Of a DNA stretch of 43,601 nucleotides, positions 3,311 to 23,254 are shown piece after piece (position 1 is the first letter of the stretch; every line of letters begins with the position of its first letter). Under the pieces are notes generated by a model that was not told the origin of the DNA, ran no database searches, and saw only the letters and a program-made list of their open reading frames with translations. Source of the stretch: Planctomycetota bacterium (GTDB lineage: Bacteria; Planctomycetota; Planctomycetia; Pirellulales; PLA5); assembly GCA_003576845.1 (NCBI GenBank), contig QEVJ01000034.1:1-43601 (forward strand), given 5' to 3'. The translations under genes were made by a program, and so were the position numbers.

Positions 3311-3533
3311 GGCGGCGTTCCTTTGCATGGCGCGAAGGCCCTGGTCCACCTTCCCTAGCAAAGTCGCCGCGACAGGCCACCGCATCGGTACCGGCGCGGG
3401 CCGATGAAGAGACGTCCCTCGACGCGCCCGCTGTAATCTGCATCGGCGGCGTCGGCTGGCCGGCTTAATCCGATCGCACCGGTCGTAGCAATTGTGACGC
3501 CGCTCTCTGGCAAGGGGGGCAGTCTAGAAAGGT

Positions 3534-3562
3534 TTGAACGATTTTGCCGGCGTGTCTATAGT
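3534..3562 (+). promoter_or_regulatory. Sigma70-like promoter for the giant lamin-tail/CotH gene
   Basis: TTGAAC (3534-3539) and TATAGT (3557-3562) are separated by exactly 17 bases. This is the best housekeeping-type promoter seen in the window. Transcription would start near 3569 and leave a leader of about 195 bases containing the palindromes at 3633-3705. Confidence 0.55.
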
Positions 3563-3632
3563 ACGAGGATCGTGTGAACGTGAGGTTCGTGGTTCGAGTT
3601 TCGAGGTCGGGTAGGCTGACGAGCGCGGGTGG

Positions 3633-3705
3633 CACGGGTGGCTTGTCCACCCGTGAGAACCATCACGTGACGTCACATCCAGTCGCACGGGTGGACAAGC
3701 TACCC
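3633..3705. repeat. Palindrome plus inverted second copy in the leader of the lamin-tail gene
   Basis: Bases 3633-3655 are a perfect palindrome: CACGGGTGG, CTTGT, CCACCCGTG. Bases 3686-3705 (CACGGGTGGACAAGCTACCC) repeat 3636-3655 in inverted orientation with one mismatch, so the leader RNA could fold into alternative hairpins. The design matches the palindrome at 635-657, which suggests a dispersed repeat family; a regulatory role is only a possibility. Confidence 0.7.
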
Positions 3706-3763
3706 GAGCAACCCGACGCGGTGTCATCGCAAACAGGCAAAGTCCGGCGAAGGAAGTGATTTG

Positions 3764-6700
3764 ATGCGTACTCGGAAACGTTGGTTCGCCCGTGAACGGC
3801 TTGCGGCGCGAGGATTTCGGGGCGGACAACGCACACGTACCGCATCGGGCAGGCAACGCCCACGCGAGTTCCGCATCGAGCCCCTCGAAGCCCGGCAACT
3901 GCTGGCCGCCAATCCGATCATCACGGAGTTCATGGCCGACAACCAGAGCACGCTCGAAGACAATGCCAGCCCCCGGGCCCATTCCGACTGGATCGAGCTT
4001 CAGAACGCCGGCGACACCGCGATCGACCTCGCCGGCTGGCACCTGACCGACGACGCCGATGACCTGGGGAAATGGACGTTTCCGAGCCGCGTCCTGCCGC
4101 CCGGTGAGTTCCTGGTCGTATTTGCCTCCGGCAACGACGCGCCGGACGGGGCCGGCAATCTGCATACGAACTTCGCACTGGCTGCCGAAGGAGAGTACCT
4201 CGCCCTGGTCCGGCCCGACATGTCGATCGCCAGCGAGTTCGGCCCCGGCGGAACCGATTACCCCGCCCAGTACCCGGACATCTCCTTCGGCATCGGCGTG
4301 AGCGAAACCGTGACGCCGCTCGTGGCGAGCAACGCGGCAATCTCGTATTTGACGCCGACGGCGGCGAGCGAGTTGCCCGCGACGTGGAACCAACTCGGCG
4401 GGAGCACCACGGGCTTCGTCGCCGGCACGAACGGCGTCGGTTACAACCTCGAAACGCCGCCCCCCTCGACGCCCGGGTTTCTTGCCCGCGTGATCGACGT
4501 AACGAGCCAGATCAGCGCGACGACGACGGCCGACCAGGTGCTCGTCAACCCCGCCGCGTTCGGCGTCACGAGCGATGCCTCGGCCATCGTCGCCCAGGTC
4601 GACTTCGCCGGCGGCGCGGGCACGTTCGGCGTGAACAACCCGTATCCCAACGGCGTCGCCAACGAGACGATGGAAGATTTCCTCGTCCACGCGCAGGCGA
4701 ACGTCGTGATTCCCGCCGGCACGTGGCAAATCGCCGTCGGCAGCGACGACGGAGCGCGTCTGACCCTCGACGGCGCGAACTTCTTGAGCCGGTTCGGCGA
4801 AAACGGCGTCCAAAACTCGGCCGACGAGATTCGCTACGAAGCCCCGCGCGGACACGGTTGGACCGGCGGCACGTTCACCACGTCCGTACCCCTCGCCACC
4901 ACGCTCGACGCGATCATGTACGAGCGCGGCGGCGGCGATTCGTTCGAGATCGCCATTCGCAACGCGGCCGGCGGGTCGAGCACGTCCGTAAGCGCGGCCG
5001 GCGGTTGGGTCTTGCTCGGCGACACGACGCTCGGCTGGGCCGTGTCGACCGATGCGTCGCTCCCACCCACCACGGTCCTTCAACCGGGCGGCGCAGGCGC
5101 GATCGGCACGCAATCGATCGCCGGGAATCTCAATCTCGCCAGCGGCGGCGCGCTCGTCGCCGAAATCAACGGCGACACCAACGCCGCCGACAAGCTCACG
5201 GTCTCCGGCACGCTCACGCTCGGCGGTTCGAGCCGCCTTGAGGTCGCCGTCATCGCGGGAACCTTGCAAGCCGGCGACACCTTCGACATCCTCGACGCCG
5301 CGGCGACAAGCGGAACGTTCAACCAGATCGCCCTGCCGCTGCCGGCCGTCGGACTCAAGTGGGACACGTCGCTGTTGCACACGACCGGCGTGATCCGCGT
5401 CATCGTCGATCCGAATCCCGACGAGGACCCGCTGCCCGGCAATTCGACGCGGCAGCAGATCGAAGATTACACGAACCTGATCGCGACCGACGCCGAGGCA
5501 ACCATGTTCGGCGGCGCCGCCTCCGCGTTCGTGCGGATTCCGTTCGGCGTGGCCGATCTCGCGAATATCGAGTCGCTTCGGCTGCGCCTGAAGTTCGACG
5601 ACGGCTTCGTGGCCTATATCAACGGCCAGGAAGTCGCGCGAACCAATGCCCCGCAAACGCTGGCCTTCGATTCGGCGGCGACCGCCGAGCGGACCAAGGC
5701 TCAGGCGCTCGCCTTTGCCGAGATTCCGCTCTCGTTCGACGTCGGACTGCTCAACGTCGGCCCGGGTGAGCAGAACGTGCTGGCGATCCACGGCCTGAAC
5801 CTCGACCCGATCGACAACGACTTCCTGCTCCTCGCCGAACTGACCGGCGTAAAGGTCGAAACGAGCGCCCATCGCTATTTCGATCCGGCCACGCCAGGCA
5901 GCGTGAACAACTCGGGCGCCGCGGACGTTATCGTGCCGCTGTCGGTAAGTCACGAGCGCGGCTTCTACGCCGCGCCGTTCAACCTCGTGCTCTCGACCCC
6001 GACGCCGGACGTAACGATTCGCTACACGACCAACGGCTCGCCGCCGACCGCAACCACCGGCCAGGTCTATACTTCGCCGCTGCCGATCGCCGCAACGACC
6101 ACGCTGCGAGCGGCGGCGTTTCGCGACGGCTACCTCCCGACCCCCATCGAAACGCACACCTATTTGTTCGTCGACGATGTGGCGCAGCAAACGGCGTCCG
6201 GCGCGCTGGCAGCGGGCTTTCCGGCAACTTGGGGATCGACCGGCGCCGACTACGGACTCGACCCCGACGTCATCGGCCCCGGCGACCTCTTCGGCGGGCA
6301 GTACGCCGCCAGCATCCGCGACGATCTGCGGGCCGCCGGCACGCTCTCGATCGTCCTCCGCACCGACGATATGTTCGGCGCAAGCGGCATTTACTCCAAT
6401 CCCGACAGCCGCGGCAGCGCCTGGGAGCGGCCGACTTCCGTTGAGTATTTCCCTGCGGACGGCAGCGAAGGCTTTCAGATCGACGCCGGCATCCGCATTC
6501 AAGGCGGCGCGTTCCGTAGCCACGGGCTCACGCTCAAAAAATCGTTCCGCCTCGCGTTTCGCGACAGCTACGGCGCCGGCAAGCTCCGCTATCCGTTCTT
6601 CGGCGACGACGCAACTGATGAGTTCGACGCCCTCGTGCTGCGGGCCAACTCGAATGACGCCTGGAACTTCTGGGGCGGGTCGAACGTGCAATACCTCCGC

Positions 6701-9700
6701 GACCAGTGGGGACGTTCGACGCAGCTCGCGATGGGCCAACCCTCCGCCCACGGCAATTTCGTCCACTTGTACATCAACGGACAGTATTGGGGCCTCTACA
6801 ACCCGTCGGAACGCCCGAATCACGCCTTCGCCGCAACCTATTTCGGCGGCGACAAGGACAACTGGGACGCGATCAACTCGGGCAGCGCCGTGAATGGCAG
6901 CACGGCGGCGTGGAACACGATGATCTCGCTCGCCAGCGCCGTGAACACCACGAATGCAGCGGCCAGCGACGCGGCATATCAGCAACTCCAAGGCAACAAC
7001 GCCGACGGCACGGACAGCCCAACGCGCGAAGACTATCTCGACGTCGACAATTTGATCGACTACATGATTGTCAACTTGTACGGAGGCAACAGCGACTGGC
7101 CGCACAAGAACTATTGGGTCGGACGCGAGCGGGGACCGAACAGCACCGGCTTCAAGTTCTTCATGTGGGACAGCGAATGGTCCCTCGGCATTCAGTCCGA
7201 CGTGAATTCGAACCAGACCGGCGTCGCAAACGGGGTGGCCCAACCCTACGGCCTCCTGCGGGCAAACGCCGAGTTTCGCCTGCGGTTCGCCGATCGTTTG
7301 CACGAGCATTTCTTCAACGGCGGCGCGCTGTACGTCGATCCGAGTAATCCAAACTACGACCCAGCAAACCCGCAGCGTAACGTCCCTGCGGCGCGGTATG
7401 CGGAGCTTGCCGCCCAAATCGAGCAGGCCATCGTCGGCGAGTCGGCCCGCTGGGGCGATATGGGCTCGGCGACGCCGCGCACCTGGGCGACCTGGGACGC
7501 GCAGCGCGACTTCTTGATGAACAGCTATTTCCCCTTGCGGTCGCAGAACGTGCTCAATCAGTTCCGCGCGGGGAACTTGTATCCGGCGACCGCCGCGCCG
7601 GAGTTCCTTGTCAACGGCGTCCGGCAACACGGCGGCTCGTTCCCTGTCGGAGCGCTGCTTTCCGTCGAGAATCCGAACACCGGCGGCGCGGGAACCGTGT
7701 TCGTCACCTTCGACGGCAGCGACCCGCGCGACTACGACTGGACGACGCACGTCGCGTCCCCCGCAGCGTCGGCCGTGACGCTCGCGCCTAGCGGCACGGT
7801 CGGGCTGACCGACACGGTGACGGTCAAGGCCCGCATTCGCCGCGACTTGGGCGGCGGGCAATTCGAGTGGAGCGCGCTGTCCGAAACCACGTTCGCTCCC
7901 GTGCTGTCCGATCTGCGAATCACCGAGGTGCATTACCATCCGGCGGACCCGACGCCGGAAGAACTGGCGGCGAACCCGCTCCTGTCGGCGAGCGACTTTG
8001 AGTTCATCGAGTTGCGAAACGTCGGCGCGGGCGCGATCAACCTGTCCGGAGCCATGCTCAGCGACGGCGTGGCCTTCGCTTTCGCCGGTTCGGCCGTCAC
8101 GTCGCTCGCACCGGGCCAGCGGGCCGTGGTCGTAAGCAACGAAGCTGCATTTGCCCTGCGATATTCCGACCAACTGAGCGGCATTCGCATCGCCGGCGCG
8201 TTCACCGGCAACCTGAACAACGCTGGCGAACGGGTCGTCCTTTCCGGAGCGTTCGGCGAAACGCTCGTCGAGTTCAGCTACGGCGACAACTGGTATCCGC
8301 ACACCGACGGCGAGGGCTATTCGCTGACCGTCCTCGACGACGCGAACCTGCTCGCCGACCTCAACGCCAGCATGAGCTGGCGGCCGAGCCAGCAGCTTCA
8401 CGGCTCGCCCGGTACCGGCGACAGCGCGCCCACGCCCGGCGCGGTCGTCATCAACGAAGTGCTGGCGAACACGAACGCCGCCGATCGGATCGAACTGTTC
8501 AACCGATCGGCTGCCCCGGTCGACGTTGGCCATTGGTTCGTCAGCAACGCGGCCGACGAGCGCCGCAAGTATCGGATCGCAGCAGGAACGATCATCCCGG
8601 CCGGCGGATATCTCGTGCTGACGGAAGGCGGCGACTTCGGCGCAGCGAGCGGCGATCCGGGAGCCCTCATCCCCTTTGAGCTAAGCGAGCACGGCGACGC
8701 CGTGTACCTCACGGCCAGCGACGCGACCGGCGACCTGTTCGGCTACCGCGAAGGGCAGGCGTTCGCGGCCTCGCTCGCCGGCGAGTCGATCGGTTTGTAC
8801 GCAAAGAGCGGCGGCGGGACCGACTTCGTGCGGCTCGCGTCGGCGACGTTCGGCGCGGCGAACTCGGCGCCGGTCGTCGGCCCGCTCGTCCTCAACGAGA
8901 TCATGTACAACCCGGCCGCCGGCGAACCGGAGTTCATCGAAATTCGCAACATCAACGCGAGCGCCGTCGCACTCGACGATGGCGTGGGCAATGCCTGGCG
9001 ACTGCGAGGAGCGATCGAGTTCGCGTTTCCACTCGGCGCAGCGATCCCGGCCGGCGGTTACGCCGTCGTGTTTCAAGGCACCGACGGCGGCGATGCCGCG
9101 GCCGAAGCGGCGGCGTTTCGCGCGGCTCGCGGCATCGCGGCGAGCGTGCCTGTGTTCGTCTACACGGCGGCCGAGCACGGCAGCTTGAACAACGCCGGCG
9201 AGAAGCTGTTTCTCGATATGCCCGGCGCGGCGGATTCGGGTTTGCCGGAGCAGCCGTATGTGCTCGTCGACGCGGTTCGGTACGATCCGATCGCGCCGTG
9301 GCCGACGGAAGCGGACGGCGGCGGCTCTTCGCTCTCGCGGATTGACTCGTCGGCCTACGGCAACGACGTGGCCAACTGGATCGCAGGTACCATCGGCGGC
9401 ACGCCGGGTAGCGAAAACGTCGGCATCGACACGACTCCGCCGACGGCTCCCGCGAACCTGCGAGCAGCGCTCGTCGCGGCGGACCGCGTGCATTTGGCCT
9501 GGGACCGCGCAAGCGACCCGCAAACCGGCGTTTCGCATTACAACGTGTATCGCAACGGCGTGCTCGTCGGTTCGACGCCGCTTCCCGTGATGACGGACTT
9601 GGGGGTTTCCGCCGGCGCTTCGCTCTCCTACCAGATCGCGGCGGTTAATCGCGACGGGCTCGAGAGCCCGCGAAGTGCACCCGCCGTTTTGGGACCGCAG

Positions 9701-10927
9701 ACCTTGCGCTATCAAGACGGCGTTAGCCCTGCCGCGAATTACGCGGGCACGCGCGACACGGAAATCCGCGCCGGACAGGCGACGCAGAACTTCGGCACGG
9801 ACACCAACCTGGAAATCGACGGCGACGACGGCGGCTTCGACCTCGCCGCGCTGTTCCGATGGCAGATCAGCCCGAGCGACCTCCCGCTCGGCAGCGCGAT
9901 CGTCGGGGCGTCGATCACGCTCGACGTGACGAACGCGACTGGCGGACCGTACGAGATTTCGCGCATGCTCCGCGACTGGGACGAAAGCCAGGCCACGTGG
10001 AGCGTGTTCCGCACCGGCCAGGCCTGGGCGACCGCCGGCGCCGGCGGCGCGGCGGATCGCGGCGCCGTGCTCGCAACGGTCGGCAACTCACCCGTCGGGC
10101 GGCAAACGTACTCCTTCAACGCGGCCGGCGTCGATCTCGTGCGGCAATGGTTCAGCGGCGCGGCCGCGAATTACGGAGTGATCGTTGCCAACACGTCGAC
10201 GACCGATGGGCTGGACGTCAGTTCGCGCGAAGTGCCCACCGCGGCGAATCGGCCTCTGTTGAGCATCAGCTACGTCCCCGCTTCGCTTCCAGGCTTGCCG
10301 GGAGATATCGACGCGAGCGGCGCGGTGAACGTCGCCGACATCGACCTGCTGTTCGACGCGATCGCTCTGGCGAGCGCCGATCCCGCGTTCGATCTCAACG
10401 GCGACTCGGTGGTCGATCGGGCCGACGCCGATCATATCGTGCGCACGATTCTCGGCACGGAGTACGGCGACGCGAATCTCGACGGCATGGTGAACCGCAG
10501 CGACGCCGCCACTCTTTCGCGCAACTTCGGCAAGGCCGCGACGTGGAGTACGGGCGATTTCGACGGCGACCGGCTCTCGACGCTGGCCGACCTGGCGCTG
10601 CTCCAGGCGGGCTTATCCGCGCCGCCCTCGCCAACGGCTAGCACCGCGGCAAGCGCGCTGCGCGTAATTCGCGATGGTTCGGGTACTTCGTCCGGCGCCG
10701 ATACGGGTCGCGCAGCGGTTGCGAATCGCCGGCCCTCCCGCGTACGCACGCCGGCCGAACCCGCGCCTGCATCCCTCGGCGGCAGCCGGTCTCGGTCGGT
10801 GGAACGCGATCCCCTGCACGTGGAGCCGCGGGCTTCCGATGTCGCAACCGCCGCCCGGGCGCGACGCTCGCTAGTTCGCGCGGGACGCGAATTATCCGCC
10901 CTGGACGAGGTCTTTGCCGACGAATGA
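3764..10927 (+). CDS. Giant secreted lamin-tail/CotH/FN3/DNRLRE/dockerin protein
   Basis: The product has 2387 residues. ATG 3764 is chosen over TTG 3761 because AGGAAG lies seven bases upstream of it. The N-terminus is Arg-rich and carries FRIEPLEARQLLA, a motif common at the start of giant planctomycete exported proteins. By position: lamin-tail domain about 50-160; chitobiase C-terminal-like segment about 725-800; CotH-like kinase region about 840-1265, with NSDWPHKNYW and MWDSEWS in the places of the CotH catalytic motifs; further lamin-tail domains near 1380, 1560 and 1706; FN3 about 1887-1975; DNRLRE-like domain about 1980-2170; dockerin repeats about 2175-2290; and a low-complexity tail ending LDEVFADE. 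It is likely extracellular or cell-surface. CotH domains elsewhere phosphorylate secreted proteins; whether this one is active is unknown. Confidence 0.9.
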   Translation: MRTRKRWFARERLAARGFRGGQRTRTASGRQRPREFRIEPLEARQLLAANPIITEFMADNQSTLEDNASPRAHSDWIELQNAGDTAIDLAGWHLTDDADDLGKWTFPSRVLPPGEFLVVFASGNDAPDGAGNLHTNFALAAEGEYLALVRPDMSIASEFGPGGTDYPAQYPDISFGIGVSETVTPLVASNAAISYLTPTAASELPATWNQLGGSTTGFVAGTNGVGYNLETPPPSTPGFLARVIDVTSQISATTTADQVLVNPAAFGVTSDASAIVAQVDFAGGAGTFGVNNPYPNGVANETMEDFLVHAQANVVIPAGTWQIAVGSDDGARLTLDGANFLSRFGENGVQNSADEIRYEAPRGHGWTGGTFTTSVPLATTLDAIMYERGGGDSFEIAIRNAAGGSSTSVSAAGGWVLLGDTTLGWAVSTDASLPPTTVLQPGGAGAIGTQSIAGNLNLASGGALVAEINGDTNAADKLTVSGTLTLGGSSRLEVAVIAGTLQAGDTFDILDAAATSGTFNQIALPLPAVGLKWDTSLLHTTGVIRVIVDPNPDEDPLPGNSTRQQIEDYTNLIATDAEATMFGGAASAFVRIPFGVADLANIESLRLRLKFDDGFVAYINGQEVARTNAPQTLAFDSAATAERTKAQALAFAEIPLSFDVGLLNVGPGEQNVLAIHGLNLDPIDNDFLLLAELTGVKVETSAHRYFDPATPGSVNNSGAADVIVPLSVSHERGFYAAPFNLVLSTPTPDVTIRYTTNGSPPTATTGQVYTSPLPIAATTTLRAAAFRDGYLPTPIETHTYLFVDDVAQQTASGALAAGFPATWGSTGADYGLDPDVIGPGDLFGGQYAASIRDDLRAAGTLSIVLRTDDMFGASGIYSNPDSRGSAWERPTSVEYFPADGSEGFQIDAGIRIQGGAFRSHGLTLKKSFRLAFRDSYGAGKLRYPFFGDDATDEFDALVLRANSNDAWNFWGGSNVQYLRDQWGRSTQLAMGQPSAHGNFVHLYINGQYWGLYNPSERPNHAFAATYFGGDKDNWDAINSGSAVNGSTAAWNTMISLASAVNTTNAAASDAAYQQLQGNNADGTDSPTREDYLDVDNLIDYMIVNLYGGNSDWPHKNYWVGRERGPNSTGFKFFMWDSEWSLGIQSDVNSNQTGVANGVAQPYGLLRANAEFRLRFADRLHEHFFNGGALYVDPSNPNYDPANPQRNVPAARYAELAAQIEQAIVGESARWGDMGSATPRTWATWDAQRDFLMNSYFPLRSQNVLNQFRAGNLYPATAAPEFLVNGVRQHGGSFPVGALLSVENPNTGGAGTVFVTFDGSDPRDYDWTTHVASPAASAVTLAPSGTVGLTDTVTVKARIRRDLGGGQFEWSALSETTFAPVLSDLRITEVHYHPADPTPEELAANPLLSASDFEFIELRNVGAGAINLSGAMLSDGVAFAFAGSAVTSLAPGQRAVVVSNEAAFALRYSDQLSGIRIAGAFTGNLNNAGERVVLSGAFGETLVEFSYGDNWYPHTDGEGYSLTVLDDANLLADLNASMSWRPSQQLHGSPGTGDSAPTPGAVVINEVLANTNAADRIELFNRSAAPVDVGHWFVSNAADERRKYRIAAGTIIPAGGYLVLTEGGDFGAASGDPGALIPFELSEHGDAVYLTASDATGDLFGYREGQAFAASLAGESIGLYAKSGGGTDFVRLASATFGAANSAPVVGPLVLNEIMYNPAAGEPEFIEIRNINASAVALDDGVGNAWRLRGAIEFAFPLGAAIPAGGYAVVFQGTDGGDAAAEAAAFRAARGIAASVPVFVYTAAEHGSLNNAGEKLFLDMPGAADSGLPEQPYVLVDAVRYDPIAPWPTEADGGGSSLSRIDSSAYGNDVANWIAGTIGGTPGSENVGIDTTPPTAPANLRAALVAADRVHLAWDRASDPQTGVSHYNVYRNGVLVGSTPLPVMTDLGVSAGASLSYQIAAVNRDGLESPRSAPAVLGPQTLRYQDGVSPAANYAGTRDTEIRAGQATQNFGTDTNLEIDGDDGGFDLAALFRWQISPSDLPLGSAIVGASITLDVTNATGGPYEISRMLRDWDESQATWSVFRTGQAWATAGAGGAADRGAVLATVGNSPVGRQTYSFNAAGVDLVRQWFSGAAANYGVIVANTSTTDGLDVSSREVPTAANRPLLSISYVPASLPGLPGDIDASGAVNVADIDLLFDAIALASADPAFDLNGDSVVDRADADHIVRTILGTEYGDANLDGMVNRSDAATLSRNFGKAATWSTGDFDGDRLSTLADLALLQAGLSAPPSPTASTAASALRVIRDGSGTSSGADTGRAAVANRRPSRVRTPAEPAPASLGGSRSRSVERDPLHVEPRASDVATAARARRSLVRAGRELSALDEVFADE

Positions 10928-20363: not shown

Positions 20364-20409
20364 CGAATAGGATTCAGCGTTCCTGGATCTCTCGGACACT
20401 TGAAACAAA

Positions 20410-20476
20410 GAACCTATTCCAGAACCCGTTGTTGTCGCCGCTCTCCCGCCCGAGCCACGGGTTCTGGGATAGGTTC
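20410..20476. repeat. 20-base inverted repeat between convergent genes
   Basis: The left arm (20410-20429) and right arm (20457-20476) pair over 20 bases with a single mismatch, around a 27-base loop. The arms read GAACCTATTCCAGAACCCGT and, on the other strand, GAACCTATCCCAGAACCCGT. It lies between the HD gene and the convergent small gene and also marks the edge of the lower-GC patch. It may be a terminator or a dispersed palindrome. Confidence 0.7.
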
Positions 20477-20497
20477 TACGTGTGGTATGGCGAATAC

Positions 20498-20929
20498 TCA
20501 ACTTGAATTGGCGAGTCCATGCGTAGCGATTCGGACGAATCGTCCTGTTTCCGATAGCTCACGCGCGACGAACTCCAGTAGATTTCGACGACCTTCCCGG
20601 CCAGGTTCCATATTCAATTCCCTCAGCAAGTCCAGTAGTTCCTGCGGCTCCACTTCGTTGGCTTCAAAGTAGCGGATTAGCTCTTCCCGCTGCATCTTGA
20701 GCAAGTCCTGAACGGGCCTATCAATTCGCTTTGTCGCAACACGTACTATCTCGTCGACCAAGTCTTGACGTTTTGGCTTTGCGGTAACGGGAATGTCCAA
20801 CGACAGAGCGACTTCCCTGAGCAAATCCACACTGCACTTTTTGCTCTTCTCCAGCGCGGCTCTCAGTCCTTCCGCGCCAAGCCAGTGTGCGAGCAGCCGA
20901 GCGTCCAATGGCTTTTCTATTGAGGACAT
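20498..20929 (-). CDS. Small protein with two SAP/Rho-N-like segments, ParA partner
   Basis: The 143-residue protein starts at ATG 20929, preceded by AGGAG. Its start lies 13 bases inside the end of the ParA-like gene, so the two are coupled. No family is recognised with confidence. Residues about 33-72 (LLREVALSLDIPVTAKPKRQ, then DLVDEIV) and about 95-130 (LLDLLRELNMEP, then RRNLLEFVARELSETG) each look like a helix-loop-helix of SAP or Rho N-terminal type, folds that bind nucleic acid. It would then be the DNA-binding adaptor of the ATPase, as ParB or small centromere-binding proteins are for other ParA proteins. Composition is less GC-rich than in neighbouring genes. Confidence 0.65.
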   Translation of the reverse strand: MSSIEKPLDARLLAHWLGAEGLRAALEKSKKCSVDLLREVALSLDIPVTAKPKRQDLVDEIVRVATKRIDRPVQDLLKMQREELIRYFEANEVEPQELLDLLRELNMEPGREGRRNLLEFVARELSETGRFVRIATHGLANSS

Positions 20930-21807
20930 CGTTCGATAAACTCCTGCGTAACTCTTCGGTAATGATGGGCCTGCTTTTCGGCATTGGCACCAGCTATGTC
21001 ATAAACAGGACAGCGTTGAACTGCGGCTTGTCGCAAGCCATCCCCCTCAGTGACGTATTCACGGAATATGCCGCACGATTGCTGAAGCCGTCGGTATTCG
21101 GTGCGCTGAGTGCCTATCAACATGCCTCCCCATTCCCGCGCCATTACGGCAATCGCCCCCGAGAAAGCAGTTGGTACAAATCCGTGTCTTGATCCGGTCG
21201 CGTTCGCAATCATCTCCATATCACTGTTTACTTCGTTTATCGCCTGTATGGCCGACGGCACACCAATTGTAGATTGAAGGTCAAGCTTAACAGGCGATAC
21301 GCAATAGTTGCATGCGTAAACTACGGTTCGCAATAGATCGGAAAGCTCAGGATGTGAATCTACAAGTATGAAGTCGTATTCACTCCTAATCGGTTGCAAT
21401 ACGGCATCCAGTACGGCGAGGTGTTGCCAAAGGAGTCGGTTGTTCTCACGTATGTTGTTTGATGCCGGCATCCTTTCGACAGTTACTTGCGAAAGTCTAG
21501 GGTCTGCCGGAAGGAGCGCGATGTGGCTGGGAGTATCGAGAATCGTAACGGTCGGACTTTGGTGAGCACCACTGTACAAGTGCTGGAAGCGGTCGTAGAG
21601 CGTAAACTCGGCGGAAGGGTGCCCATCGCGAAAGTTCTCAATAAGCGCCGGCAGAAACCGGCACGTGAGACCGCCCCGTTGGTAGTCCGTATCAACGCAG
21701 AGGACTCTCTTCTGGTGATAGCGCTGCAAACCGACTGCGATGTGGTAACACGTCGTGGTCTTTCCTACACCACCCTTCTCGCTTATGAATCCTACCACGA
21801 TTCCCAT
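20917..21807 (-). CDS. ParA/Soj-like ATPase
   Basis: The protein is 296 residues from ATG 21807; the frame runs on upstream but into the insertion sequence and is not part of the gene. MGIVVGFISEKGGVGKTTT gives the deviant Walker A of ParA/MinD ATPases at the very N-terminus. VDTDYQRGG follows as the switch I region, TILDTPSH is Walker B-like, and a second acidic strand is YDFILVDSHPELSD. Such ATPases position DNA or cargo with a small partner, here the downstream SAP-like gene. One counted 60-base row (21241-21300) is 52% GC against 73% for row 39661-39720, suggesting foreign origin. An IS3 element ends 67 bases upstream, so the original promoter may be lost. Confidence 0.85.
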   Translation of the reverse strand: MGIVVGFISEKGGVGKTTTCYHIAVGLQRYHQKRVLCVDTDYQRGGLTCRFLPALIENFRDGHPSAEFTLYDRFQHLYSGAHQSPTVTILDTPSHIALLPADPRLSQVTVERMPASNNIRENNRLLWQHLAVLDAVLQPIRSEYDFILVDSHPELSDLLRTVVYACNYCVSPVKLDLQSTIGVPSAIQAINEVNSDMEMIANATGSRHGFVPTAFSGAIAVMAREWGGMLIGTQRTEYRRLQQSCGIFREYVTEGDGLRQAAVQRCPVYDIAGANAEKQAHHYRRVTQEFIERCPQ

Positions 21808-21930
21808 TGCGTGCGCCCTCGAAGTTCGTCGAAAACCAACACGTCTGTATCGTTTCGCGTTCGGTGAGGTGCCTGGGGTTTTCTGGACAGTCCAACTCCT
21901 TATTCTTGAAGGAAAAGGAAGGACGATCCG

Positions 21931-22230
21931 ATGGTCCAGACGAAAGGAAAGCGTGCCGCTCGTGGGCGGCGGCGGTTTACTGAGGAGTTCAAGCGGGAGG
22001 CCGTGCAGATGCTGCTCGATGGGCATTCGGCCGGGTCGGTGGCCACGCGGCTTGGTCTGTCGGGACCGAACTTGTTGTATCGCTGGAAGCAACTGGCCGT
22101 CGATCGCGCGGGACCGGCGGCGCGGACGCTCGGCGATCGTGTCGCACAACTCGAAGAAGAGCTCCGTCGCGTCGAGCGCGAACGCGACATCTTAAAAAAA
22201 GCGTTAGCCATCTTAAGCCGCCACACGTAG
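21931..22230 (+). CDS. IS3-family transposase OrfA
   Basis: The 99-residue protein begins with a helix-turn-helix (RRFTEEFKREAVQMLLDGHS, VATRLGLSGPNLLYRWK), which binds the element ends. A leucine-zipper-like helix (LGDRVAQLEEELRRVERERD) follows, and the protein ends ILSRHT. GGAAGGA lies shortly upstream of the ATG. Near its end, codons TTA AAA AAA (22192-22200) form a slippery A-run where a -1 shift enters the OrfB frame. Confidence 0.92.
   Translation: MVQTKGKRAARGRRRFTEEFKREAVQMLLDGHSAGSVATRLGLSGPNLLYRWKQLAVDRAGPAARTLGDRVAQLEEELRRVERERDILKKALAILSRHT
22194..22201 (+). promoter_or_regulatory. Programmed -1 frameshift site of the IS3 element
   Basis: Seven A residues followed by G (22194-22201) are read in OrfA as A-AAA-AAA. 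After a -1 slip the frame continues AGC GTT AGC CAT without stop into OrfB. This arrangement is standard for IS3 elements, which make the active OrfAB fusion this way. Confidence 0.7.
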
Positions 22231-22280
22231 CCGACGTTTACGCCCTGATCGAACAACTCACCTTTCCAGGAACCTTCGCC

Positions 22281-23105
22281 GTGACCGCCGTGTGCGATAC
22301 GCTCGATGTCAGCCGTGCGGGCTACTATGCCTGGCTCGATGAAGTCGAGACCGCGCGCGAGCATCGCGATCGCGAACTGATGCCGCTCGTGCGGAGCATC
22401 TTCTGGCGGCACAAGCGGCGCTACGGCGCGCGGCGGATCGCGCTGGAACTTGCGGCGCTGGGCGAGCCGTGCGGCGTCGATCGCGTGGCAAAACTGCTGA
22501 AAATCCAGGGTTTGAAGGCGATTCAGCCCAAATCCTTCAAGCCGCGGACCACCGACAGCGACCACGCGCTCGGATACAGCCCGAACTTGCTGATGCGAAG
22601 CCCGCCGCCCGTCGACGTGAACCGCGTGTGGGTCGCCGACATCACTTACATTCCCTTGAAGGAAAAAACCTTTGCGTACCTGGCACTCGCGCTCGATCTC
22701 TGCTCGCGGCGCGTGATCGGCTGGAACTTGGCCGAGCACATGACCGAGACGCTCGTCGTCGACGTGCTGCAACAAGCGATTCGTGCGCGGCAGCCGCCGC
22801 CGGCGCTCATCCATCACAGCGATCGCGGCGGACAATACGCCGGCGCCAAGTTTCGCGGCGTGCTGCGACGCGCCGCGATGCGGCAAAGCATGAGCCGCGC
22901 GGCAAACTGCTACGACAACGCCTTCATGGAATCTTGCTTCGGCACGATCAAGACCGAACTCGAAATGACCGAATACCCTGACAGCCAGACGGCCCGCCGC
23001 GACATCGCCAGCTACCTCAGCTACTACAACCACGACCGCCGCCACTCCTCGTTAAATTACCTCTCCCCAGCAGATTTCGAGGCCCAACTCAGCCGGTCCA
23101 CTTAA
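22281..23105 (+). CDS. IS3-family transposase OrfB (DDE integrase domain)
   Basis: The 274 residues from GTG 22281 carry the integrase core. Asp120 (VWVADITYI), Asp181 (HHSDRGGQY) and Glu217 (NAFMESCFGTIKTE) form a DDX35E triad. The HTH_21-like segment RRYGARRIALELAALG precedes it. The frame is open back to 22200, so the natural product is an OrfAB fusion made by frameshifting rather than a protein starting at the GTG. The sequence looks intact and potentially active. Confidence 0.92.
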   Translation: MTAVCDTLDVSRAGYYAWLDEVETAREHRDRELMPLVRSIFWRHKRRYGARRIALELAALGEPCGVDRVAKLLKIQGLKAIQPKSFKPRTTDSDHALGYSPNLLMRSPPPVDVNRVWVADITYIPLKEKTFAYLALALDLCSRRVIGWNLAEHMTETLVVDVLQQAIRARQPPPALIHHSDRGGQYAGAKFRGVLRRAAMRQSMSRAANCYDNAFMESCFGTIKTELEMTEYPDSQTARRDIASYLSYYNHDRRHSSLNYLSPADFEAQLSRST

Positions 23106-23254
23106 GCACTTCTACTGTCCGAAATTTGCCAAGCATCTCACGGTTACTGTGGTGCTTCGGATAGGCCAACACCGATAGATCACCACATTCGCCCCACTCT
23201 GCGCATTCTAGCCACAGCGAATTCCATTGCAAGTGACTCTGCGCGAAGCGAAGT

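Follow-up and report, generated by a model that had tools for sequence, protein, structure and literature searches.

ParA-type ATPases are usually labelled "partition" by default, and the question raised by this locus is what such an ATPase is for when its conserved partner is not a ParB. The window, a stretch of 43,601 nucleotides from a Planctomycetota bacterium (contig QEVJ01000034.1), contains two overlapping genes that, on a sequence-only reading, could be either the relic of a partition module or a mobile system of another kind:

20917-21807, minus strand: ParA-type ATPase gene (P0002), 296 amino acids, with matches to Pfam AAA_31 and PHROG 164 and a Soj-like fold in the AlphaFold (AF2) model
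20498-20929, minus strand: partner gene (P0001), 143 amino acids, with a homologue directly 3' of parA in all 22 genome loci

Both open reading frames were confirmed, together with the 13-bp overlap between them (20917-20929), and the pair does have a lower GC content than its surroundings. The 1310 bp from 20498 to 21807 have a GC content of 0.527, compared to a mean of 0.651 (SD, 0.022; minimum, 0.594) in 381 overlapping 1310-bp segments of the contig outside 20363-23255. GC at third codon positions is 0.54 and 0.57 in the two genes, 0.81 in the neighbouring HD-domain gene and 0.65 in valS. The word "relic" does not fit what we found, since both frames are whole and the residues that are invariant in the family are present; parA and its partner are an intact two-gene module.

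The two genes form an obligate pair. When 84,980 species genomes were scanned with just residues 36-296 of ParA, 83 pattern matches came up, among them 22 relatives, and in all 22 of these loci, found through ParA alone, the partner lies directly downstream. The overlap is 1 to 16 nt in 20 of the 22, the remaining two having a 16-nt gap (L095) and an assembly gap (L096). Among 72,556 plasmid records, the partner matched 36 at an E value of ≤1, of which 34 reached ≤1e-6 and two were chance matches; ParA matched 907, with 34 at 47.6-54.5% identity before a drop to 28.4% for the next. These two sets of 34 accessions, compared by eye, are identical, and on plasmids each gene is therefore found only with the other. 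The conserved link of the small protein to ParA, whose absence was to refute the earlier reading, is thus borne out by genomes and plasmids. Pairwise identities of ParA and partner, taken as distance matrices over the 22 loci, correlate with an r of 0.905 that none of 2000 permutations reached, as expected of a pair inherited together. Exactly one copy of the pair is present in each of 20 genomes (20/20), and the source genome (7.05 Mb in 289 contigs) has one copy of the partner.

The pair is also rare and patchily distributed. Its hosts include Planctomycetota, Acidobacteriota, Desulfobacterota (Thermodesulfobacteriota), Chloroflexota and alpha-, beta- and gammaproteobacterial Pseudomonadota, and among 369 genomes of the proteobacterial class around Hydrogenophaga it occurs in one, which is the centre itself. 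Among 392 Planctomycetota genomes, P0001 found no further convincing member besides the window itself; 35 of these genomes had only matches with E values of 0.006-0.1 that we treated as chance. P0002 found no member of this ParA subfamily in 50,697 phage records. Near scans with single window proteins were fruitless, and alignments were needed to find the relatives. Of 48 viral matches, the 47 other than L027 were ParAs at lower scores and were set aside. A search of the literature found no study of this ParA-partner pair; an excerpt of PMC5864857 lists "parA, plasmid partitioning protein" in a table, with other genes borne on ColE1, and an excerpt of PMC12137116 does not mention ParA.

The ATPase half of the pair matches Pfam AAA_31 with an E value of 7.6e-24 and PHROG 164, named "ParA-like partition protein," with an E value of 1.3e-31. 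Its AF2 model (pLDDT, 90.4) is closest to Soj, ParA and McdA chains, with Z scores of 25-28 over 231-263 residues: 28.3 over 250 residues at 2.5 Å for the Soj chain 9a6n_A, 26.8 for Thermus Soj (1wcv) and 25.8 for McdA. The nucleotide-binding motif lies at the start of the protein:

21754-21780, minus strand: deviant Walker A motif of ParA, residues 10-18 (EKGGVGKTT), from the alignment of 22 ParAs

In the 22 aligned ParAs, E10, K11, G12, G13, G15, K16, T17 and T18 are invariant and residue 14 is V or T; the signature lysine K11 and the P-loop lysine K16 are joined in their invariance by D39/D41 and D150. This alignment (A5) leaves out L085 and L094, which are present as L021 and L023, and also L086, L091, L093 and L096, whose ParAs are extended, truncated or gapped; alignment A4 leaves out L085 and L094. 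The ParAs of L091 and L093, two of the 22 loci and neither of them aligned, are without an in-frame Walker A part. The family shares with Soj/ParA ATPases the fold, the KGGxGKTT signature, the DxD after strand 2 and the Walker B aspartate, but this ParA is only 17-28% identical to the Soj, ParA and McdA matches, the family's Walker B position reads DSHP, compared to DAPP in the Thermus Soj alignment, and there is an invariant DYQRGG. Given the conserved motifs and the Soj fold, the protein is apparently a competent ParA ATPase, which, by likeness to studied ParA systems, would dimerise with ATP and bind DNA or membranes non-specifically.

The partner is harder to place. It is not a ParB, in agreement with the sequence-only reading, as no ParB match was found in Pfam, NCBIfam or PHROGs. 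Its AF2 model (pLDDT, 88.7) has helices at residues 10-28, 34-43, 54-65, 73-76, 81-90, 95-104, 111-115 and 117-141 and no beta-strand, and 9 invariant positions are common to 26 members of the family. One part of it resembles a nucleic acid-binding unit:

20732-20830, minus strand: Rho_N/SAP-like helix-loop-helix unit, partner residues 34-66, with a sub-threshold Pfam Rho_N match and helices at residues 34-43 and 54-65

Two SAP/Rho-N-like segments had been proposed, and only the first has stood up to some extent. Residues 37-67 match Rho_N with an E value of 0.0064 and 16.9 bits, below the curated cut-off of 24.9, and Rho_N is matched by 11 of the 26 family members, with a best E value of 2.5e-4 that is also below the curated cut-off. 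The second unit is very weak, with hhalign P values of 0.004-0.011 and a probability of 2-3% in an internal-repeat test. As for a SAP fold, the model is all-helical and VIA-align gave a partial match to nucleosome-bound DEK (Z score of 4.7 over 57 residues), but an unrelated Cas13d segment reached an equal Z score, and this is too weak to prove the fold. There is a partial likeness to a phage Rho_N protein (1.2 Å over 42 alignment columns; E value, 1.8), Foldseek found no match at an E value of ≤0.001 in the PDB or among viral models, and the best E value of the partner profile against solved structures, 0.23, is not meaningful. The matches to SAP, Rho_N and HeH-LEM units are thus sub-threshold and partial, none being significant, and the searches run gave no clear structural relative for the rest of the protein. 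Since the structural and profile matches are weak, nucleic acid binding by the partner is plausible at most.

A more regular feature of the partner family is the charge of its two ends, for which the relevant segment is as follows:

20516-20545, minus strand: basic C-terminal tail motif, partner residues 129-138, with G129 and R133 invariant

All 26 members have a net positive charge in the 12 residues that begin with the invariant G129 (mean, +2.8). The N-terminal tail has a mean of 5 residues and a net charge of -0.8, and it is net positive in 1 of 26. Having a ParA ATPase with an unrelated small partner is common to McdAB and other ParA/MinD cargo-positioning systems, and an excerpt of PMC10241942 describes a disordered N-terminus with a positive charge as the part of the known partners that contacts the ATPase. 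Compared to the partners described there, the polarity is reversed here, the N-terminus being short and uncharged to acidic and the C-terminal tail basic. We propose that the C-terminal tail may take over the role of the basic N-terminus in contacting the ATPase.

The carriers show that the pair is a horizontally moving module on plasmids, in prophage and at variable chromosomal sites, which fits the suggestion of a mobile system of another kind. Of 5426 complete Escherichia coli genomes, 21 have the pair, and each of its 25 locations in them is on a plasmid. Among the carriers that we opened, those of E. coli, Enterobacter and Salmonella are plasmids of 4.5-9 kb with ColRNAI or rep_cluster_2335 replicons and a MOBP relaxase, the Salmonella carrier having mcr-5 according to its record; two others are plasmids of Yersinia ruckeri (17 kb) and Acidovorax (49 kb). 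As judged by eye, two related copies, L027 and L092, belong to P2-like prophage and have genes for phage tail, lysis and Dam next to them, and in Alcaligenes (L089) the pair lies 262 bp after a tRNA-Met gene; an apparent integrase C-terminal fragment was seen by eye downstream in L089. Several chromosomal copies stand beside housekeeping genes. Some carriers are contigs of metagenome-assembled genomes, so single placements could be binning errors. In the ParA tree, the window groups with Desulfobacteraceae and Bryobacteraceae sequences, with support (84/75) that is not strong, inside a group that is split from the proteobacterial branch with 99/100 support. The nearest ParAs are on an acidobacterial and a desulfobacterial contig and also in planctomycetes; in the partner tree, the window is nearest a planctomycete. 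A stretch like pYRKMM821_1 with both ParA pairs, as in L023, lies inside a 3.67-Mb scaffold of Y. ruckeri ATCC 29473 (scaffold1, L094), and this is either an integrated plasmid or a scaffolding error.

At its own site, the pair is placed between an HD-domain gene and valS, with three further features around it:

20409-20477, no strand: inverted repeat of 21 nt (loop, 27 nt), where the HD-domain gene and the partner gene converge
21865-23140, plus strand: IS3-family insertion sequence, with orfA at 21931-22230 and orfB at 22281-23105
20364-23254, no strand: variable segment from the HD-domain gene to valS, with different DNA in one same-genus genome

The same-genus genome (G392), in which valS is 84% identical, has about 550 bp of unrelated DNA between the 3' end of the HD-domain gene and valS, compared to 2.9 kb here. 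This comparison marks the segment as variable and the pair as probably acquired, and the low GC content likewise speaks for mobility. This different DNA is in the last 600 bases of L102 (from G392), and the gap between the two genes may thus be a recurrent insertion site. The inverted repeat reported on one side of the pair is present, with arms of 21 nt (20 had been counted) at 20409-20429 and 20457-20477 that are 95% complementary. A search of the whole genome that allowed two mismatches found these two arms and, elsewhere, just one single arm with two mismatches. With its match at a single locus, the hairpin is probably a shared bidirectional terminator and not a repeated site, and we reject it as a repeated centromere or a mobile-element end. 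On the other side, the IS3 element is complete, with imperfect terminal repeats (24/36 positions), and it is flanked by a 3-bp direct repeat, CGG. Its near end is 57 bp upstream of the start of ParA, and it is therefore an independent insertion; it is there, as had been reported, but does not bound the module, and its own ends, 3-bp duplication and position rule it out as the vehicle.

What the pair does for its carriers can be explained in several ways, of which partition is the obvious one. The ATPase would then segregate a plasmid or other mobile element, the partner would be a new centromere-binding protein acting at an unrecognised site, and chromosomal copies would be remnants of integrated elements. 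The order of ATPase and then partner with a short overlap is that of partition operons, the nearest solved folds are Soj and ParA, many carriers are plasmids, and the PHROG name itself points this way. The pair shares with ParABS type Ib a short ParA without an N-terminal helix-turn-helix followed by an overlapping small partner gene, but here the partner is all-helical, with neither a ParB nor a ribbon-helix-helix match in Pfam, NCBIfam or PHROGs and no beta-strand in the model. Nor did we find, close to the pair, the centromere-like sites that a partition system would suggest: in the 250 bp flanking 26 pairs on either side (L026, L086 and L096 left out), direct and inverted repeats were not consistently above 20 shuffles, and no shared palindrome or operator was seen upstream, the palindromes of L021 and L022 looking like terminators; a unique or more distant site is conceivable. 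Moreover, the pair coexists with another ParA-plus-partner pair on the larger plasmids. The Acidovorax plasmid also has a canonical ParA and ParB beside RepA, and the Y. ruckeri plasmid that was opened, out of two records, has an unrelated short ParA with a 95-amino-acid partner (L023:1-911; 4-bp overlap) 1.3 kb upstream of the pair, so that on two plasmid types the pair is not the sole partition system of its carrier. Most of the other plasmid carriers are only 4.5-9 kb, of the ColRNAI or rep_cluster_2335 type where opened, and ColE-type plasmids are a class kept at high copy number. Chromosomal copies are, besides, frequent. The second pairs (Acidovorax and two Y. ruckeri plasmids), the small ColE-type carriers and the chromosomal copies weaken the earlier label of a partition module. 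With a second pair present and no repeats or palindromes found, carrier partition is unlikely to be the job of the pair on the larger plasmids, and for the family as a whole we consider partition improbable, if still the strongest competitor to the explanation that we prefer.

Two further explanations rank lower. The ATPase could position a host protein or RNA cargo, as McdAB and other ParA/MinD systems do, and be carried horizontally by chance. This is attractive in that McdA is among the structural matches and that, according to an excerpt of PMC10241942, a wide range of cargos is positioned by ParA/MinD ATPases whose partners are unrelated. However, no third gene that could be the cargo is conserved across the loci by eye, the partner is without the basic disordered N-terminus, and the distribution is very patchy, which leaves such a role rather improbable. 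A VirC1-like helper, which would raise mobilisation by delivering the relaxosome or plasmid to the conjugation apparatus, is the least probable of all and has only a slim chance of being correct: 31 of the 36 matching plasmid records listed are typed as mobilizable and the Acidovorax copy is near type IV secretion genes, but the Y. ruckeri carrier is typed as non-mobilizable, and no mob genes were recognised by eye near the chromosomal and prophage copies in the stretches read.

We rank above these, tentatively and with less than even confidence, a horizontally moving accessory module in which a ParA and its dedicated adaptor use the ATP cycle in mobile-element conflict rather than in partition of the carrier. 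The pair is likely to act as a ParA switch that is driven by ATP and has an adaptor of its own. If it resembles the ParA systems that have been studied, dimers of ParA with bound ATP would cover the nucleoid DNA, and the Rho_N/SAP-like helices of the partner would attach it to nucleic acid or to a complex on DNA. The partner would then trigger ATP hydrolysis and release of ParA, possibly through the conserved basic C-terminal tail, and the cycle could serve to handle, displace or exclude incoming DNA. We favour conflict because the pair is cargo on ColE-type plasmids, P2-like prophage and variable chromosomal sites and because it sometimes neighbours genes for restriction or abortive infection or stands in line with an operon that includes a 5mC methyltransferase.

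These neighbours are as follows. L086 has an AbiJ-domain gene on one side of the pair and SspE-like and DndD/PbeC-like genes on the other, and a toxin-antitoxin-like pair precedes the ParA pair in L095, as judged by eye. In three betaproteobacterial loci (L087:343-3219, L096:2989-5896 and L097:2989-5865), genes for GmrSD_N (DUF262), HEPN_MAE_28990 and a 5mC methyltransferase stand in line directly upstream; this row may itself be a restriction-like system. Library matches were run on the proteins of L086, L096 and L097, and L087 was assigned by sequence likeness and by GmrSD_N and PF00145 searches. The 20 genomes contain 27 GmrSD_N genes, and in 4 genomes such a gene is no more than 6 kb from the pair, compared to 0.106 expected (Poisson P = 5e-6); these four represent about two independent lineages, for which the probability of two or more is 0.005. 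The control covers one family, GmrSD_N, that was chosen after the neighbours had been seen (PF00145 was searched and is not in the expectation), and the excess is therefore suggestive only. In the other 16 of the 20 genomes, no GmrSD_N gene is near the pair, and L079, L081 and L083, among others, have no such genes in the stretches read. PADLOC models gave no match to the partner and, for ParA, an unconvincing match to PDC-M28B (18 bits; 47 residues, the Walker A motif among them).

The fuller proposal, an undescribed two-gene, ParA-based anti-mobile-element family in at least 5 phyla and on ColE-type E. coli plasmids, with a Rho_N/SAP-like adaptor whose basic C-terminal tail would drive the ATPase cycle and with occasional coupling to a GmrSD-HEPN-5mC-methyltransferase operon, is more doubtful than the conflict role as such, and we put it forward as a possibility. 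In E. coli and Salmonella, small ColE-type plasmids, the mcr-5 plasmid among them, carry the pair as their main cargo. Should the conflict role be true, a ParA switch would be added to defence biology; should it be partition, the partner would be a new centromere-binding protein with a reversed tail polarity.

On enterobacterial plasmids, an open reading frame of 61-76 amino acids follows the pair (L085:2308-2490, with equivalents in L021, L022, L023 and L094), the L085 copy matching DUF2158; no equivalent was seen in the window. Elsewhere in the window, an open frame of 1669 amino acids (3524-8533, minus strand) lies antisense to a gene of 2388 amino acids (3761-10927, plus strand) and is probably a shadow frame of that high-GC gene.
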